A stretch of 64,000 bases of DNA from an uncultured Dehalococcoidia bacterium (GTDB lineage Bacteria > Chloroflexota > Dehalococcoidia > Lucifugimonadales > Australimonadaceae), in assembly GCA_958295525.1 (NCBI GenBank), contig OY282355.1:2289931-2353930 (forward strand). The letters are read 5' to 3'. The translations under genes and the position numbers were made by a program. Below, piece by piece: positions 3,819 to 43,061 of the stretch (positions are counted from its first letter, which is position 1; every line of letters starts with the position of its first letter). The notes under the pieces were generated by a model. That model ran no database searches and was not told the origin of the DNA. It was given only the letters and a program-made list of their open reading frames with translations.

Positions 3819-4086
3819 GTGCGGGCTCCTTCGCTGGGCGCGTGTGTGATGAGGGCACGGGGATTATACGGAGCGGAGAGCAAGGCGGCAAGCGCGGCGC
3901 ATCCGTGGACAAGTAGCCTACGGCTTGCGGGTCGGCGGCGACTCTTCGGACCGCGTAAATGTCCTCGCGGGCGAGCGTGGCGGTCTCACTAGAGGATTCG
4001 TGGCTGGCGAGGCATTTCGTCAATGGAACTGCACAGATGAAGGCGAGCAGAACCAATCGTCGGTCAGGCATTCGTCGCGCGTAGGT
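3819..4086. other. Intergenic region upstream of icd
   Basis: About 270 bases between the icd start and the palindrome that follows the Rieske gene. It should hold the icd promoter. A minus-strand open frame crosses it but lacks a ribosome binding site and overlaps both the palindrome and the icd start, so I do not call a gene. No repeat of the dispersed family was seen here. Confidence 0.5.
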
Positions 4087-4120
4087 ATTGGGCGGAGGCG
4101 CCGCGGCGCCTCCGCCCAAT
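4087..4120 (-). terminator. Perfect 34-bp palindrome after the Rieske oxygenase gene
   Basis: Two 17-base arms (ATTGGGCGGAGGCGCCG and its exact complement) abut with no spacer, 6 bases past the stop of the minus-strand Rieske gene. The position suggests a transcription terminator, although no T-tract follows. Confidence 0.6.
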
Positions 4121-4126
4121 ACGCCG

Positions 4127-16392: not shown

Positions 16393-16706
16393 TGATAACG
16401 AGAATGACGGAACTGCGCGAGCGGCTCGAGCGGCGAGGGAAGTGGGCGCTGCCTGCGGCGGCGCTCGCCGCCGCCGCCGTGGTCGAGATCGCGCTGGAGA
16501 TTCTGTACGAGACCACGGCGGGCGACCGCGAGGGCGGTTTGATCTCGACGCCGCTGTTTTGGGCGGCGTTCGGGGCCGTGACGGTTGCGGCGGCGGCGGC
16601 GCTCGCGCATTTGGCCGTTCGCGCAGGGCTGCTGCGCGGGCGCGGCTACTACGGCGGCGATGAGGAAGAGGAGCAGGTAGAGGAAGAGGAGCGGGTAGAG
16701 CGGTGA
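16389..16706 (+). CDS. Small two-helix membrane protein of the antiporter operon
   Basis: 105 residues. A charged N-terminus is followed by hydrophobic helices at about 17-33 and 52-75. The C-terminus is a run of acidic residues (DEEEEQVEEEERVER). The ATG at 16389 overlaps the preceding stop and the end overlaps the next GTG, so it is translated with the antiporter. No family is recognised. By position it resembles the small accessory subunits (such as MbhI) of Mbh-type complexes, but I see no sequence motif to prove it. Confidence 0.65.
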   Translation: MMITRMTELRERLERRGKWALPAAALAAAAVVEIALEILYETTAGDREGGLISTPLFWAAFGAVTVAAAAALAHLAVRAGLLRGRGYYGGDEEEEQVEEEERVER

Positions 16707-18367
16707 GCAGCGTGCCTCCTTTCCTCATTATGCTGGCCGGCGCGGCGGTCGTTTTCGCCTTGCCGGGGAGGCTGCGGGGCTGGGCGTTTCTCGCGGCGCC
16801 GGCCATCGTGCTGGCGCAACTCGTCTTTTGGCTCGACCACAATTCCCACTTGTCGGTCGAACTCGCGGGCTTGACGCTCACGCTGCTGGAGGTCAACGAG
16901 TTCAACGAGGTGTGGGGGACGGTGTTCGCGCTCGTGGCGCTCGGCGGCGGGGTGTTCGGGCTGCGCCTGCGCGACCGCGTTCAGCGGCGATGTACGGCGC
17001 TGGCCTACGGAGGAAGCGCGTTCGGCGTGCTGTTCGCAGGCGACTTGCTCACGATCATCGTCTTTTGGGAACTGATGGCGGTGACGTCGTTTCTGCTGAT
17101 CGTGAACGGCGGGAGGCCGGGCTCGCGGGCGGCGGCGATGCGCTACCTCTTCGTGCACGTCGCGGGGGGCGCCGCGTTCCTCGGGGGGATTCTGTGGCAC
17201 GCGGGCGAGACGGGGTCGTTCGCGCTCGAGGCGTTCGAGGCGACGCCTGCGGGATGGCTCGCGCTGCTGGGCGTGCTCATCAACGCGGCGGGGTTCCCCT
17301 TCCATTCGTGGCTTTCGGACGCCTATCCGGAGTCCAGCATCACAGGGATGGTGTTCCTGGCGTACACGACCAAGACGGCGGTGTACGTGCTTTTGCAACT
17401 CTTCCCGGGCTGGGACGTTTTGGTGGTCGCGGGCACGTTCACAACGCTGTACGCGAGCGTCTACTCGCTGGTTCAGAACGACGTGCGGCGGATCATCGCG
17501 TATCAGATCATCAGCCCGGTGGGGTTTATGACGGCGGAGGTTGGACTCGGAACGGCGCACGCGCTGGAAGGGGTGGCGGCGCACGCATTCACGCACGTGC
17601 TGTGGCAATCGCTGATGGTGATGGGCGCGGGGACGGTGCTGTACGCGGCGGGGACGTCGAAACTCACCGAACTGGGCGGACTGGCGCGCCCGCTGCGGTT
17701 CGTCTTCGTCCTGTACCTCGTGGGGGCGGTTTCGCTGGCGATTCTGCACCTGCAGGCGAACGTCGGGAGTTCGCTGTCGGATGCGAGCGGGTTGGCGTTG
17801 AGCCTAATTCTCGCGGCGGCGGCGTCCGTGACGATCTTGGCGGTTGTCGTGCGGATTCCGTACTACGTGTTCTTCGGCGAGCCCCGAGGGCTGACGCTGC
17901 GTTCGGTTCCGACGAGTATGTACGTTGCGATGGCGGGGGCGGCGGCGTTTTCTATCGCCGCTGCGATAGAGGAAGGCTGGCTCTTCAGCCTCTTCCGGCT
18001 CGGGATTCACGCGGAGAACATCGGGCTCAACTCGTTCGCGTTCGGGGCGCAGGCGGCGCTGCTGGCGGGAGTGGCGGGCTGGTTCGTTCTCCCGTGGCTC
18101 AGGCCAAGAGACGGCGTCGTCCTCGACACGGACTGGTTCTACCGGAAGGCGGGGCCCGTCGTCCGGCGCGGCCTGCAGGTTCCGCTGGAGGCGGCGTTCA
18201 CGGCGTGCGAGCGGGGGGCGGCGGCGGCGGCGCGCGAGCTCCCTCGCCTCGCTCCTTCGCCTGCGCGCCTCGCCTTGCTGGGGCGTCCGCCGGTGGGGGT
18301 CGCGCTCGCGGCGATTCTGCTGACGTTCGCGGCGGTGGCGTTGCTGGCTTGGGCGGTCGGGGGGTAG
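16703..18367 (+). CDS. Proton-translocating antiporter subunit, third ND-type copy
   Basis: 554 residues, the longest of the three ND-type subunits. The Glu helix appears as GDLLTIIVFWELMAVTSFLLI. LGVLINAAGFPFHSWLSDAYPESSITGMVFLAYTTKTAVYVLLQ gives the His/Lys channel region, and AYQIISPVGFMTAEVGLG with THVLWQSLMVMGAG the broken-helix region. The C-terminal ~80 residues contain DTDWFYRKAGPVVRRG, a segment commonly seen at the end of ND5/MrpD-like proteins of this kind, plus a last helix. The GTG overlaps the preceding stop. This gene closes the operon. Confidence 0.9.
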   Translation: MSSVPPFLIMLAGAAVVFALPGRLRGWAFLAAPAIVLAQLVFWLDHNSHLSVELAGLTLTLLEVNEFNEVWGTVFALVALGGGVFGLRLRDRVQRRCTALAYGGSAFGVLFAGDLLTIIVFWELMAVTSFLLIVNGGRPGSRAAAMRYLFVHVAGGAAFLGGILWHAGETGSFALEAFEATPAGWLALLGVLINAAGFPFHSWLSDAYPESSITGMVFLAYTTKTAVYVLLQLFPGWDVLVVAGTFTTLYASVYSLVQNDVRRIIAYQIISPVGFMTAEVGLGTAHALEGVAAHAFTHVLWQSLMVMGAGTVLYAAGTSKLTELGGLARPLRFVFVLYLVGAVSLAILHLQANVGSSLSDASGLALSLILAAAASVTILAVVVRIPYYVFFGEPRGLTLRSVPTSMYVAMAGAAAFSIAAAIEEGWLFSLFRLGIHAENIGLNSFAFGAQAALLAGVAGWFVLPWLRPRDGVVLDTDWFYRKAGPVVRRGLQVPLEAAFTACERGAAAAARELPRLAPSPARLALLGRPPVGVALAAILLTFAAVALLAWAVGG

Positions 18368-18378
18368 GCAACAACTGA

Positions 18379-18428
18379 GCAGGGCGCAGCCCCTCTCACT
18401 AAATTTACCCCGTGGCGCTGCGCCCTGC
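18379..18428 (+). terminator. Hairpin at the end of the antiporter operon
   Basis: Perfect 12-bp inverted repeat GCAGGGCGCAGC (18379-18390) and GCTGCGCCCTGC (18417-18428) with a 26-base AT-richer loop, starting 11 bases after the last antiporter stop. Probably terminator-like, though no T-run follows. Confidence 0.45.
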
Positions 18429-18476
18429 CCGCATAGATGGGACGACACTGGATGGCGCATCCGTCAAATCAGCCTG

Positions 18477-18506
18477 TTGACAAAGCCCCCCAGAAAGCGC
18501 TAGCGT
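18477..18506 (+). promoter_or_regulatory. Weak candidate promoter for the GmrSD-type gene
   Basis: A consensus -35 hexamer TTGACA lies at 18477-18482. The best -10 match at 18-base spacing is only TAGCGT (18501-18506). About 40 bases before the coding start. Confidence 0.25.
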
Positions 18507-18543
18507 TCCCTCACGGCCTTCATTCACGAGCGGGAAACGACCT

Positions 18544-20415
18544 ATGGAACCTACCAAACCGACTATACGTGTCCTCTTCGGACACCCTGTCGTCTACAAC
18601 ATCCCCTATTACCAGAGAACCTACGTCTGGGACGAGAGAAGCCAGTGGGAGCCTCTCTGGTTTGACGTTGTCGGCCTAGCCGACCGGCTAGTGGGCGCAA
18701 CTCCAAAGGATGCGATGAGGCAGAAGCCCCATTTCTTGGGCGCCGCCGTCCTCAAGGAGACGACGCAGCCAGGCGATGAGGTCAGGGTGCAAACCGTCGT
18801 CGACGGCCAGCAACGCATAACGACAACGCAGTTGCTCTTGGCTGCCATAGCGGACGCCCTCAAAGAGTTTCCGGCACTGGAGGGCTCTGAGATGCTGGCG
18901 AGAAACCTGACCATAAATTCGGTAATGAGGAAAGAAGTTGGCGACACGCCATTCAAAGTCGATCCTTTAGGCAGGGATTTCCGTTCGTTTGATGACGTAA
19001 TGCGTGCAAGCAAGGACGGGAACCAACCTATTCAAGTCCAGGGACGCATTGGCGATTGCTACCGCTTTTTCCTGAAGAAATCTTCCGAATGGCTTACGAA
19101 AGATGGAGAATCGGAAGGAGTCCTTATCAGCAGAGCCGAGGCTTTGTGTGCGGCCATATCCGATAAGTTGCAAGTCGTAGCCATATACTTGGATCCCGGC
19201 GAGAACGAATACGCGATATTCGAAGCGCTCAACGCCCGTGGGGAGCCTCTATCGGAATGGGAAAAAGTGAAGAACTACATCCTCTTCAAAGCCGGTGAAG
19301 ACGGACATGACCAATCCGAAATCTACAAAACTCACTTGGAATTCTTCGATGGCTCCGAATGGATGAAAGGGATAGGCAGAGGCGCGGCTAGGCGGCGAAA
19401 GTCGGACCTGTTCTTGGATTACTGGCTTGAGTCTGAATTGCTTCACGACGTCAACGCCCGTTATGTTTTCCGTGAGTTCAGGAGCGCGATCGATAGCCAC
19501 AACCACAATCTAGTACAGTGGTGCCAACATATGAACCAGAATGGGGAGTATTTCTTGGAATGGGAGGGTTTCTCTGGTCTCAATGGAGATGTAGAATCTC
19601 TCTATCATGCTCGAAGAAATGCTCTTGGAATTGGTGCAATATGGCCATTCTTGATGGGCCTTTCACGCATCCAAATGCAAAAGTCGGATCAGTACAGGTG
19701 TTTCCGCGCGCTTGACAGTTTTATGTGGCGACGCGCAATCGTAGGCATATCGACTCGGAATTACGACGCAGTCACGGAGTACTTGCTTAAAGCGTTGGAC
19801 AAGGCTCGCAGAAATCCCACTGGTGACCACCCGTACAGCGATGCAGTAATAGAAGATCTCCTTGACTCGCAGGATACCCGGGCATACCTTTGGCCTGAAG
19901 ACGAAGAGGTTGCGCAAAGTATCCGCAATAACTCGTTCTACATGTCCGGCACCCTAACGCGTACTATACTCGAGGCTGTTGAACGCGCGATGATGCGTGG
20001 TCACCACCCCGGCAACACCAACCTCTCCAGCAAACTGCCGATAGAGCACCTGATGCCCCAGACGCGAAATGAAGAAGATTGGCCCATACCTCAAGCCGAG
20101 GGCGATGACGAGGAAACGCTTGAGTCACGTAGAATTGAGCGTCGGTACTCCATTCAGCGTCTTGGAAACTTGACTTTGGTTACGCATGGACTGAACTCGA
20201 AACTGAGCAACAAGCCCTGGGTCAAAAAGCATCAAATTCTCCACGAAGAAGACAACCTCTACATCAATAAAGACTTGCTCAACCACGCGCCTCAAGACCA
20301 CTGGGACGAGGAGCAAATTCGCTTGCGCGGGGAGCGGTTGGCAGGCTACATCCTCCAAATCTGGCCTCATGGTCACGCCGTGACAGGCGAGATCGAGAAG
20401 ATACGTCCGGCGTAA
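18544..20415 (+). CDS. Fused DUF262-DUF1524 protein (GmrSD-type restriction nuclease)
   Basis: 623 residues joining a GmrS-like N-terminal DUF262 domain and a GmrD-like C-terminal HNH domain. IPYYQRTYVW (20-29), HFLGAAVL and the nucleotide-binding VDGQQRITTTQLLL (86-99) define DUF262. Near residue 500, IEHLMPQT gives the HNH His, and RLGNLTLVTHGLNSKLSNKPWVKK the last HNH strand with its Asn. Known relatives (GmrSD, BrxU, SspE) cleave modified phage DNA. It stands alone, with no DNA-modification genes beside it. The base composition is visibly lower in GC than the flanks, suggesting horizontal acquisition. The target modification is unknown. Confidence 0.85.
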   Translation: MEPTKPTIRVLFGHPVVYNIPYYQRTYVWDERSQWEPLWFDVVGLADRLVGATPKDAMRQKPHFLGAAVLKETTQPGDEVRVQTVVDGQQRITTTQLLLAAIADALKEFPALEGSEMLARNLTINSVMRKEVGDTPFKVDPLGRDFRSFDDVMRASKDGNQPIQVQGRIGDCYRFFLKKSSEWLTKDGESEGVLISRAEALCAAISDKLQVVAIYLDPGENEYAIFEALNARGEPLSEWEKVKNYILFKAGEDGHDQSEIYKTHLEFFDGSEWMKGIGRGAARRRKSDLFLDYWLESELLHDVNARYVFREFRSAIDSHNHNLVQWCQHMNQNGEYFLEWEGFSGLNGDVESLYHARRNALGIGAIWPFLMGLSRIQMQKSDQYRCFRALDSFMWRRAIVGISTRNYDAVTEYLLKALDKARRNPTGDHPYSDAVIEDLLDSQDTRAYLWPEDEEVAQSIRNNSFYMSGTLTRTILEAVERAMMRGHHPGNTNLSSKLPIEHLMPQTRNEEDWPIPQAEGDDEETLESRRIERRYSIQRLGNLTLVTHGLNSKLSNKPWVKKHQILHEEDNLYINKDLLNHAPQDHWDEEQIRLRGERLAGYILQIWPHGHAVTGEIEKIRPA

Positions 20416-20462
20416 GACGGACGGGCTCATGGCTTTCCCGTGCCTGCCCTTTTTGCCTTGAC

Positions 20463-20493
20463 CACGAAAGCAGGAATCTACTGGGAGCGCAGT
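20463..20493. repeat. Degenerate remnant of the dispersed palindrome
   Basis: The sequence CGAAAGCAGGAATCTACTGG (inside 20463-20493) matches, with a few changes, the right arm and flank of the copy at 33775-33806 (CGAAAGCGGGAACCTACTGG). It appears to be a decayed copy. Confidence 0.5.
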
Positions 20494-20505
20494 ACGGGCT
20501 CAATG

Positions 20506-20708
20506 CGACGACTACCTGACAGGGCGGCGTGGCCGTCGAACCTCACCGGCAAGGCGCTCACGGGGGACGCCGAGGAGAGATTGCGCGAGATTCCCGACCC
20601 CGCGTGCGGAAGGCGAAGAGCAGCCGCCAGATGCGTATGTTCGACGAGCAGCCCCGCGAGCCCGGGCTCCGCGAGACTCCCGCCGAATACGCGGTCTTGG
20701 AGGAGTAG
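20506..20708 (+). pseudogene. Possible decayed gene fragment
   Basis: Two coding-like stretches in different frames. The first reads NLTGKALTGDAEERLREIPD (about 20536-20595), resembling the start of many DNA methyltransferases just before their catalytic motif. The second, about 20609-20708, reads KAKSSRQMRMFDEQ and then a further acidic tail to a TAG. Neither makes a full protein. I infer a frameshifted or internally deleted remnant, perhaps of a modification gene that accompanied the nuclease upstream. Evidence is weak. Confidence 0.3.
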
Positions 20709-20717
20709 GGCTGCGCT

Positions 20718-20772
20718 TATAGCAAGTTTAGCGATCTTATGAAAAAATCCTAAACTCGCTAAACTTGCTATA
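20718..20772. repeat. Perfect 17-bp inverted repeat in AT-rich DNA
   Basis: TATAGCAAGTTTAGCGA (20718-20734) and its exact complement (20756-20772) flank a 21-base loop with an A-run. The composition differs sharply from the surroundings. It could be a terminator, the end of a small mobile element, or a recombination scar at the downstream edge of the acquired region. Confidence 0.7.
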
Positions 20773-20857
20773 AACTGGCCGCGTCCGTGAGTTCATGCGC
20801 CGCATCATCCCCGGAGACGATTGGCCCGGCGACGATTGGCGCTAGCGAGGTTCTCCT

Positions 20858-21958
20858 TTGGCGATTGGCGTGTTCGGGCTGCCGCTTTCGGGCAAGACGA
20901 CGATTTTCAACGCGGTCACGCGCGGGCGGGCGGAGACGGCCCCCTTCCGCAGCGCGTCGGCGCAGCCCAACGTGGGCGTGGCGAAGGTTCCCGACCCGCG
21001 CCTCGGCGTTCTCGCGGAGATTTCCAAGCCGAAGCGGATCGTTCACGCGGAAGTCGAGTACGTGGACGTTCCCGCCGCGCCGGAGGGGTTCGGCAAGACG
21101 CAGGGCATCGCGGGCGAGCATCTGAATCTGCTGCAACGCTGCGACGCGCTGCTGCTCGTGGCCCGATCGTTCGACGACCCCGCCGTGCCGCACGCGCAGG
21201 AGACGGTCGATCCCTACCGGGACGCGGAGTCGCTGCAGTTGGAGTTGACGTTCTCCGATCTGGCGATTTTGGAGCGGAGGCAGGAGCGTATCGCGTCGCA
21301 ATTGCGGTCGGCGCGTCCCGCCGAACGCGACGCGCTGACGCGGGAGCAAGACGTGCTCGCCGTCATTCGCGCCGGGCTGGAGAACGAGGTTCCCGTGCGC
21401 GAGCAGCAGACGCCGCCTGACGCCAAGCCCGCGCTGGACAACTTCCAACTGCTCACCGCCAAGCCGCTCATCGTCGTGTTCAACATCGGAGAGGACGCGA
21501 TTGGCGGGGCGGACGCGCTGGAGGAGGAGATGCGCGCGCGGCTGGGGCGTCCGGGCGTCGGCGCGGCGGCGCTGTGCGGGAAGTTGGAGGCGGAACTGGC
21601 GCGGATGAGCGCGGAGGACGAGGCGGAGTTCCGCGAGTCGCTCGGCGCGGGCGAGCCCGGCCTCGACCGGATGGTCAAACTCTCCTACGGCCTGCTGGGG
21701 CTGATTTCGTTTCTGACGACGGGCGAGGATGAGACGCGCGCGTGGACGATCCGGCAGGGGACGAGCGCGGCGGAGGCGGCGGGCAAGATCCATTCCGACA
21801 TCCAGCGGGGGTTCATTCGAGCCGAGGTCACGGCCTACGACGACCTCGCCCGCGTCGGGAGCGTGGCGGAGGCGCGCAAGCAGGCGCTGCTTCGCGCCGA
21901 GGGCAAGACCTACGCGATGCGGGACGGCGACGTCGTCAATTTTCTGTTCAATGTGTAG
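20858..21958 (+). CDS. ychF: Redox-regulated ATPase YchF (Obg-family GTPase fold)
   Basis: 366 residues, the expected length. The P-loop GLPLSGKTT (residues 7-15) follows the N-terminal MAIGVF. VEYVDVPAAPEGFGKTQGIAGEHLNLLQRCDALLLVARSF covers switch regions and the G3-type motif. The G4 equivalent VVFNIGED departs from NKxD, consistent with ATP preference in YchF. A coiled-coil insertion (about 125-170) and a C-terminal TGS domain (ARAWTIRQGTSAAEAAGKIHSDIQRGFIRAEV) complete it. The start is a TTG with GCGAGG about 7 bases before. hemW follows 9 bases later, suggesting cotranscription. It acts in translation and stress regulation. Confidence 0.92.
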   Translation: MAIGVFGLPLSGKTTIFNAVTRGRAETAPFRSASAQPNVGVAKVPDPRLGVLAEISKPKRIVHAEVEYVDVPAAPEGFGKTQGIAGEHLNLLQRCDALLLVARSFDDPAVPHAQETVDPYRDAESLQLELTFSDLAILERRQERIASQLRSARPAERDALTREQDVLAVIRAGLENEVPVREQQTPPDAKPALDNFQLLTAKPLIVVFNIGEDAIGGADALEEEMRARLGRPGVGAAALCGKLEAELARMSAEDEAEFRESLGAGEPGLDRMVKLSYGLLGLISFLTTGEDETRAWTIRQGTSAAEAAGKIHSDIQRGFIRAEVTAYDDLARVGSVAEARKQALLRAEGKTYAMRDGDVVNFLFNV

Positions 21959-26180: not shown

Positions 26181-26216
26181 AGAGGGAGGGCGGCGCGAAC
26201 GCGCCGCCCTCCCTCT
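26181..26216. terminator. Long GC-rich hairpin between convergent genes
   Basis: A 17-bp perfect inverted repeat (AGAGGGAGGGCGGCGCG and complement) around two central bases. It lies between the plus-strand membrane protein and the minus-strand binding protein, so it may terminate both. TTCTC follows on the plus side. Confidence 0.6.
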
Positions 26217-41460: not shown

Positions 41461-42297
41461 ATAGAAGCGCTAGCCACACACAGCATCAGCCCTCTGACGA
41501 AAGTCTTCGAGGGCGACTGCCTCGATGTGCTGCGAAAAGAGGTTCCGCCTCAGTCGGTCGACCTGATCTTCACTTCGCCGCCCTACGCCGACCAGAGGAA
41601 GAACACCTACGGCGGCATCCACCCCGACGACTACGTGGAATGGTTCCTGCCCCGCGCCGAGGCTATGCGGGCATGCCTCAAGCCCACCGGCTCGTTCGTG
41701 TTGAACATCAAAGAGAAGGCGATGAACGGCGAGCGCCACACCTACGTGCTCGAACTCATCCTCGCCTTGAGGAAGCAGGGCTGGCTCTGGGTCGAGGAAT
41801 ACGTCTGGCACAAGAAGAACGCCGTGCCGGGGAAATGGGCGAATCGCTTCCGCGACTCGTGGGAGCGGCTGCTGCAATTCACCACTTCCAAGAAATTCAA
41901 AATGAACCAGGACGCGGTGATGGTGCCCGCCGGCGATTGGAGAGAGGGGCGCCTCACCAACATGTCGGATAATGACCGCGTGCGTATGCCTTCGGCGACT
42001 GGGAGCGGATTCGGGCGGCGCATCGCCAATTGGGAAGACAGGGATTGGGCCTACCCTACGAATGTCCTGCACCTGGCAGCCGAGTGCGGCCACAAGAACC
42101 ACCCGGCGGTGTTTCCCGCGTCACTCCCCGATTGGTTCATCCGCTTGTTCACAGACCCGCTTGACGTTGTGCTTGACCCGTTCGCCGGGTCGGGCACGAC
42201 CCTGCTCGCTGCTCGCAGGCTAGGCCGTGACGGCGTTGGCGTAGAGATAAATCCCGGCTACTGCGACATCATCAGAGAGCGCATACGATCATGGTGA
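41461..42297 (+). CDS. DNA methyltransferase of a type II restriction-modification pair (beta class, N4-C or N6-A)
   Basis: About 278 residues. The catalytic motif FTSPPY is near the N-terminus and the SAM-binding motif DPFAGSGTTLLAARRLGRDGVGVEIN near the C-terminus, an order typical of beta-class amino-methyltransferases. SPPY favours N4-cytosine methylation but does not prove it. Conserved family sequence FEGDCLDVLRKEVPPQSVDL begins before the first canonical start (GTG at 41527), and the only in-frame candidates upstream are ATA codons at 41461 and 41455 behind an AGGAG box. The start is therefore unsettled: a non-standard ATA start, a sequence error or a truncated gene. It overlaps the endonuclease gene by 7 bases. 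Confidence 0.85.
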   Translation: MEALATHSISPLTKVFEGDCLDVLRKEVPPQSVDLIFTSPPYADQRKNTYGGIHPDDYVEWFLPRAEAMRACLKPTGSFVLNIKEKAMNGERHTYVLELILALRKQGWLWVEEYVWHKKNAVPGKWANRFRDSWERLLQFTTSKKFKMNQDAVMVPAGDWREGRLTNMSDNDRVRMPSATGSGFGRRIANWEDRDWAYPTNVLHLAAECGHKNHPAVFPASLPDWFIRLFTDPLDVVLDPFAGSGTTLLAARRLGRDGVGVEINPGYCDIIRERIRSW

Positions 42298-43061
42298 CCC
42301 CGGCACCGGATTGGTACAAGAGAGCCGAACCCGAGCTGCATGCGCTCGTTGAGGTGTTCTCAGACAAGGTCCGCGCTCGTTTGGCGTCTGACCCCGAGAA
42401 CATCATACGGCGCGCCAACCCGTTCTTGCTCAGAGTGCTGGACGCGGATAACCCGGTGGACTTGGCGTGGAGGATCCTTAACACGTTCATGTTCCACAGC
42501 GAGGCGACCATGTTCGGCACTGTGATGGAAAACCTTGCCATCACGGTCTGCGCGCACACCTACGGAGGACAAAAGTCTTCTACTCCTGGGATAGACTTGG
42601 AGTACATGGACAGGAACGGCATAAGGGCTGCCGTTCAGATAAAGTCAGGAGAGAACTGGGGCAACTCCACCGAGCGTGGGGCTCTCCGACGCGCCTTCCA
42701 GACTGCGCGGAGGATTCTCAACCAGCAGCACATCCATGTGCGCTGCATAGAAGGTTGTTGCTACGGAAGCAGCCGGAAAGTGGATGAAGGCGACTACGAA
42801 ACTATCATCGGACACGACTTCTGGGAAGAGATAACCGGCTGGGAAGGGACCGCTAATGCGATATTTGATATCATGGAAGAGCATGCCGGTGACGGAATGC
42901 AAGTTGAGCGTGTCGGATCCCACGCAAAAGTGCTTGATGCCCTCAGGAGAAATGGCGTAACGCGAGGGAACGCGATCAATTGGGAGATGTTGTTCCGTTT
43001 CGTCATGGATCCGAGACCTGCTTCCGACAGCAAGCGCGGCTCCCGGTCTCCGCGCAAATGA
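42291..43061 (+). CDS. Type II restriction endonuclease, PmeII-like
   Basis: 256 residues overlapping the methyltransferase by seven bases. The putative catalytic PD-(D/E)xK variant is E80 (TVMENLAI), D102 (STPGIDLEYMD) and Q117-x-K119 (AAVQIKSGENWGNST), the pattern I recall for PmeII-family enzymes. It should cleave unmethylated target DNA. The recognition site cannot be told from sequence. The GC content is lower than in neighbouring genes, suggesting horizontal transfer of the pair. Confidence 0.8.
   Translation: MVTPAPDWYKRAEPELHALVEVFSDKVRARLASDPENIIRRANPFLLRVLDADNPVDLAWRILNTFMFHSEATMFGTVMENLAITVCAHTYGGQKSSTPGIDLEYMDRNGIRAAVQIKSGENWGNSTERGALRRAFQTARRILNQQHIHVRCIEGCCYGSSRKVDEGDYETIIGHDFWEEITGWEGTANAIFDIMEEHAGDGMQVERVGSHAKVLDALRRNGVTRGNAINWEMLFRFVMDPRPASDSKRGSRSPRK

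Follow-up and report, generated by a model that had tools for sequence, protein, structure and literature searches.

In the available excerpts of the paper that describes their genomic setting (PMC4619093), GmrSD genes tend toward defence islands near restriction-modification (R-M) genes, and the R-M domains enriched around the family are mostly of types I and III. The locus analyzed here resembles those islands, as far as the excerpts describe them, in that a GmrSD-type gene lies in DNA absent from relatives and beside R-M material, but differs from them in that the R-M part is a methyltransferase cut down to its ends. This DNA contains a single defence-type gene that is intact, together with a single relic of R-M type. 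With the PF01555 methyltransferases that lie behind AlwI/NucS_C-type nucleases in two other genomes of the class (G058 and G186), it has both recognizable protein ends in common, whereas the window lacks their catalytic core as well as the nuclease gene. Finally, like the stand-alone AAA_16 (PF13191) ATPase genes of chromosomes and plasmids, it has a promoter region with an inverted repeat and the last codons, but the whole ATPase domain is missing.

The window, a stretch of 64,000 nucleotides (G000:C1:2289931-2353930), is part of a single-contig genome of 2.51 Mb. We estimate at about 80% the probability that a small defence/accessory segment was acquired between the last gene of the Mrp-antiporter operon and ychF, and that 20416-20845 is the part of it that has decayed (Table 1).

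Table 1. Features of the locus (positions in the window)
Feature	Position	Strand	Remark
Mrp-antiporter subunit gene	16703-18367		Pfam Proton_antipo_M
Stretch holding the inserted segment	18368-20857	+	11-71 nt long in five congeners; left edge not sharp
Intact GmrSD-type gene, 623 aa	18544-20415	+	GmrSD_N and GmrSD_C domains; 52% GC
Remnant of the genome's own dispersed repeat	20455-20490	.	18 other places at 86-96% identity
Putative N-terminal remnant of an N6/N4 DNA methyltransferase gene	20503-20607	+	from ATG 20503
Putative C-terminal remnant of the same gene, other frame	20601-20708	+	to stop TAG; strong for G186, weak for G058
GCGTGCG, common to the ends of both homologous pieces	20602-20608	+	possible deletion joint, as read from sequence; mechanism inferred
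Inverted repeat, putative promoter/operator region of the lost ATPase gene	20717-20773	+	18-bp perfect arms 20717-20734 and 20756-20773
TATAAA, -10-like box	20769-20774	+	start-codon position 8 nt further on, as in several relatives
ATPase gene remnant	20783-20845	+	start-codon position, then last codons (homology from 20789) and stop
15-bp tandem duplication in the ATPase tail	20810-20839	+	lengthened tail
Native ychF leader	20845-20857	+	common to congeners
ychF	20858-21958

An insertion ahead of ychF

The gap between the antiporter gene and ychF measures 2,490 nucleotides here, against 11, 62, 68, 69 and 71 in five congeners, and the DNA of 20416-20857 has no match in these five at E <= 0.01. 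Of the genomes sampled, only this one carries the insertion, which is about 2.5 kb long. The initial annotation had read the region as an acquired segment and had proposed a comparison with strains lacking the nuclease; the short site in all five congeners agrees with that reading, and the sequence is not one conserved in all relatives. The gene order mnhE..mnhD-mrpD-antiporter-ychF-hemW is kept in the three congeners that were checked (G001, G003 and G005), where mnhD and mrpD are 78 to 82% identical and ychF about 83%; the names mnhE, mnhD, mrpD, ychF and hemW are given by homology.

The right edge looks simply like the end of an ATPase gene. The stop codon of the ATPase remnant abuts the ychF leader, whose GCGAGGT, common to the congeners, restarts at the final base of that codon; the interval first annotated ends before the surviving last codons. 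The left edge is less sharp. For the DNA leading up to the GmrSD-type gene (18368-18543), a search of the genome gave no further copy and a sole second match, to its own palindrome, and an Rfam search of 18300-20900 gave no match at E <= 1.

The antiporter gene itself is only 42 to 43% identical to its counterparts in G001, G003, G005 and G008, and may therefore have been exchanged too. Those four counterparts, one of them from another genus, share 75 to 97% identity, and the neighboring genes keep about 80%. Judged from these identities, an in-place exchange by a distant homologue is likely.

By its domain content, the intact gene of the insertion is predicted to encode a GmrSD-type, type IV-like restriction enzyme, in keeping with the defence gene first proposed: GmrSD_N and GmrSD_C stand in one chain with 96.3 and 74.9 bits (Pfam cut-offs 33.2 and 23). 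Its GC content compares with 68 to 69% in the flanking genes. A second GmrSD_N-like gene occurs in the same genome (G000:C1:2047478-2048164; 33% identity over 11-250, 661-aa frame). By eye, no methyltransferase was seen beside other GmrSD genes among the ORFs of G025 (L109) and L073.

Just behind the GmrSD-type gene lies the remnant of a dispersed repeat. Its 18 further matches in the same genome extend over 25 to 36 nucleotides, and it is akin to a family with many copies within the window. The degenerate repeat copy of the initial annotation is thus real, but it is resident DNA and marks neither a donor nor an element end.

A probable methyltransferase relic

Homology suggests that 20503-20708 is most likely made of the first 33 or so and the last 35 or so codons of an N6/N4 DNA methyltransferase gene. 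The middle of about 260 residues is missing, and the two ends are in different frames. We searched 393 genomes of the class with the two pieces joined by an X, and found matches at E <= 0.01 in 12 of them, counting the genome of the window. Apart from that one, the best were in G058 (E 9.1e-5) and G186 (E 0.0016); both fall within N6/N4 DNA methyltransferase genes (338 and 322 residues respectively), at the N-terminus. In other words, the top two among 393 genomes are mutual homologues, matched at the same N-terminal place. Aligned with residues 3-34 of these two relatives, the first piece has local scores of 87 and 77, neither of which is reached by any of 5000 shuffles. The second piece scores 55 against residues 294-314 of G186 (0 of 5000 shuffles) and 34 against G058, a value reached by 107 of 5000 shuffles; that the C-terminal piece is convincing for one relative only is counter-evidence to our reading. 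The four other frames of the fragment score 21 to 32 (up to 32 for G058). A coding-like fragment in two frames, with a first part resembling the start of a DNA methyltransferase, was what had been guessed from the letters, and both points are borne out.

Taken per genome, an E-value of 9.1e-5 amounts to about 0.04 across 393 genomes. The match alone is therefore modest, and the case is carried by the order and position of the two pieces. Among the remaining joined-piece matches (E 0.003 to 0.01), three were inspected and none is the methyltransferase. The 100-aa frame, compared with 39 relatives, has weak matches in 24 genomes at E <= 1, the best outside the own genome being 4.9e-4 in G016; three of these were inspected and are unlike the methyltransferase, and the weak matches were taken as chance. 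Unrelated matches of this frame have raw scores of 70 to 87, similar to those of the methyltransferase. Positions 20538-20615 have a 72% match elsewhere in the own genome (E 9.4e-4), and the fragment has no match among plasmids.

The protein search in both frames, proposed at the outset, had a mixed outcome. Neither frame matches a family in Pfam or PADLOC, nor do the pieces in NCBIfam, and the catalytic domain PF01555 has no Pfam hit in 20503-20708, while homologues were found in genomes. The initial annotation had held that failure to match any protein family would speak against it. We do not read the empty scans as a refutation, because only the ends are left and these lie outside the Pfam model: in the methyltransferase of G058, the one relative of the two on which Pfam was run, the model covers residues 35-273, whereas the fragment matches residues 3-34 or so and, for G186, 294-314. 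What is missing, some 260 residues, corresponds roughly to the Pfam core, and this would account for the scans being empty. The fragment is a relic, and not a member, of the N6/N4 methyltransferase family. As GCGTGCG is common to both frames at the joint, a deletion between short repeats is suggested.

In both G058 and G186, the methyltransferase gene lies directly behind a nuclease-like gene, with RE_AlwI and NucS_C above the Pfam cut-offs in G058, and NucS_C above and RE_AlwI below them in G186. By analogy, the methyltransferase was probably half of a type II R-M pair; no remnant of a restriction nuclease was seen. A search of the 393 genomes with the G186 protein gives matches at E <= 1e-30 in 14, of which only G186 itself and G058 are close. 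These two genomes, the only ones of the 393 with close methyltransferase relatives, also carry the ATPase family described below, on other contigs (L113 6432-7619 and L114 6464-7645); they belong to one family, so this co-presence may reflect shared ancestry. Elsewhere in the window, the ORFs 41527-42297 (methyltransferase-like by eye, with SPPYAD) and 42291-43061 overlap by a few bases in DNA of locally lower GC, and look like another, intact R-M pair.

The inverted repeat and the ATPase tail

The arm TTATAGCAAGTTTAGCGA at 20717-20734 is followed by its complement at 20756-20773, perfect over 18 bp and at 88% over 26 bp. What had been noted as a perfect 17-bp inverted repeat in AT-rich DNA is therefore real and perfect, with arms of 18 rather than 17 bp; GC is 42% at 20709-20784, compared with 68% and 69% in the two flanking genes. 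Four other inverted repeats in the window pass the same filter, all GC-rich and one of them perfect over 19 bp, so that length alone is not remarkable. Perfect GC-rich repeats lie at 4085-4122 (19 bp) and 26181-26216 (17 bp).

Beyond the 2.51-Mb genome itself, one-mismatch arms were found, among the 393 class genomes, in G089 and G153 only, and in both they immediately precede the start of an AAA_16 ATPase gene (split by a frameshift in G089). Two arm matches in viral contigs are single arms, one within a long ORF, and were taken as chance. The ATPase family was sampled from 2 of 20 relatives and 15 of 393 class genomes, giving 19 loci, or 17 genes once the duplicates L088 and L091 are removed. 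For 13 of the 17, the upstream region is more similar to the 75 nucleotides of the window than are all 200 shuffles, and nine have an inverted repeat unreached by any of 100 shuffles. As a control, an easier test (0 of 30 shuffles) was applied to 162 arbitrary 75-mers from eight loci, and 7 passed it. A -10-like box of at least five matches in six lies 6 to 10 nucleotides from the start codon in 14 of the 17 (best place in the range, counted with no shuffle control). Four plasmid copies give one pass (0 of 100 shuffles), two near passes (1 and 2 of 100) and one failure (52 of 100). Four ATPase genes (L085, L086, L087 and L089) have upstream DNA unlike that of the window or of the others. The arms differ from gene to gene and yet stay paired (for example in L084 and L090). 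In the window, the -35 place (ATCCTA) is poor.

Such comparisons identify the inverted repeat as the putative promoter region of an AAA_16 ATPase gene, not an insertion end. The scar or edge seen in it by the initial annotation would instead be the promoter region of a second lost gene. Since the -10-like box overlaps or adjoins the right arm, with the start codon no more than ten bases on, a DNA operator over a leaderless or near-leaderless promoter is more likely than an RNA hairpin.

From the start-codon position, the sequence jumps straight to the last codons of the ATPase (EFMRRIIPGDDW to the stop, 20789-20845). Read in the register that the lost start codon would set, the remnant gives VREFMRRIIPGDDWPGDDWR-stop; about 380 codons are absent. 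The ATPase of G020 ends in DEFMRRIMPGDDWR-stop, against which EFMRRIIPGDDW scores 67 (0 of 5000 shuffles). At the DNA level, 36 nucleotides of the tail are 89% identical to L058, and 38 nucleotides 87% identical to L075. The AAA_16 domain is absent at 20717-20845 and elsewhere in the own genome, and no member of the ATPase family was found in this genome or the five congeners.

In G058, the ATPase gene has an SDR gene on one side and an FtsX-like gene on the other (both named by eye), with an overlap of 4 nucleotides between its stop and that of the SDR gene. Of 14 sister genomes, 11 have the FtsX-like start within about 66 nucleotides after the SDR stop (L144 is not counted, and L140 and L143 have other DNA downstream); G153, one of those 11, has its ATPase gene on another contig. 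The ATPase end of G020 overlaps a convergent ORF by 4 nucleotides. Among 72,556 plasmid records, 105 contain relatives, and among 50,697 phage records 1 does. To all appearances this is single-gene accessory cargo. The family has no PADLOC match, none of the papers listed by a literature search for it is relevant, and its matches to solved structures are 46-residue ATP-binding ones, to Orc4 only; a putative C-terminal winged helix is assigned by eye from the sequence alignment.

These observations could be joined into one scheme, which we hold as a doubtful but conceivable one. The ATPase gene and its palindromic promoter of about 70 bp would form a mobile cargo of one gene, which inserts into narrow gaps between genes such that its own stop codon comes to lie at the joint, as in the window and in G058, where sister genomes have the site empty. 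The palindrome would be a putative operator for the ATPase's own C-terminal DNA-binding part, with arms co-changing as specificity drifts, and the window would keep the operator after loss of the regulator.

Alternative explanations

The inverted repeat might be the end of an insertion sequence or a miniature derivative (MITE), as perfect short arms bounded by TA, suggestive of the IS630/Tc1 type, in an AT-rich stretch within GC-rich DNA would invite one to think. A search for other copies of the arm had been proposed at the outset; none with fewer than three mismatches exists in the genome beyond its own two (three places have three, and a reversed-pattern control gives two). The sole one-mismatch arms in the other 392 class genomes precede ATPase genes, and the whole flanking 75 nucleotides are common to ATPase promoters. 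The arm searches in the own genome, in the 393 class genomes (one mismatch) and in viral contigs leave this origin unsupported, and we consider it very improbable. It is a little less improbable that the hairpin has been kept as a bidirectional terminator, or as an insulator, separating the GmrSD-type gene from ychF: the RNA fold is strong (z = -5.5) and sits between two same-strand genes. Yet the stem is AT-rich, by eye without the GC-rich stem and T-run of an intrinsic terminator, and relatives have the hairpin before, not after, a gene.

Of greater weight, though still unlikely, is that the methyltransferase resemblance is due to chance and 20503-20708 is noncoding. The empty searches in Pfam, PADLOC, NCBIfam and plasmids, the modest E-value after allowing for 393 genomes, and unrelated matches with similar raw scores all point that way. 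Against it, the pieces correspond to both ends of one protein and follow each other in the correct order, the shuffles are exceeded by the first piece for both relatives and by the second for one of them, and the other four frames score 21 to 32. An assembly artefact or chimera at the joints would fit a genome known as an assembly alone, but one contig runs through with the native neighbor order on both sides and the pieces form an orderly row, which makes it hardly credible.

Proposed history

We therefore return to the decay of acquired cargo. Beside the intact GmrSD-type gene lies a row of relics, with the methyltransferase present as ends only and the ATPase gene as promoter and tail, and the initial suggestion that other cargo was lost holds. 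As no genome with an intact version of the locus was found, we infer the deletions and their order. Internal deletions would have removed the missing middles of both genes, that of the methyltransferase possibly at the 7-nucleotide direct repeat GCGTGCG. The methyltransferase would once have been half of a type II R-M pair, whose nuclease gene would have been lost. The part left whole would be the GmrSD-type enzyme, whose family does not depend on a methyltransferase partner. The palindrome would once have served as promoter/operator of the ATPase gene, with the transcript starting probably at or near the start codon; now ending 84 nucleotides before ychF, it may be either inert or a spare promoter. 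The parts may have arrived either together or one by one.

What the locus presents is no new kind of system but a fossil in which gene loss can still be read, the ordinary decay of cargo that had been acquired. It makes the decay of acquired defence cargo visible close to base resolution: the type IV-like enzyme stays whole, while a putative R-M methyltransferase and a regulatory-looking ATPase lose their middles and keep their ends. A puzzling palindrome would thereby be explained as the fossil of a promoter, and a conserved promoter architecture is indicated for a widely transferred family of ATPase genes.
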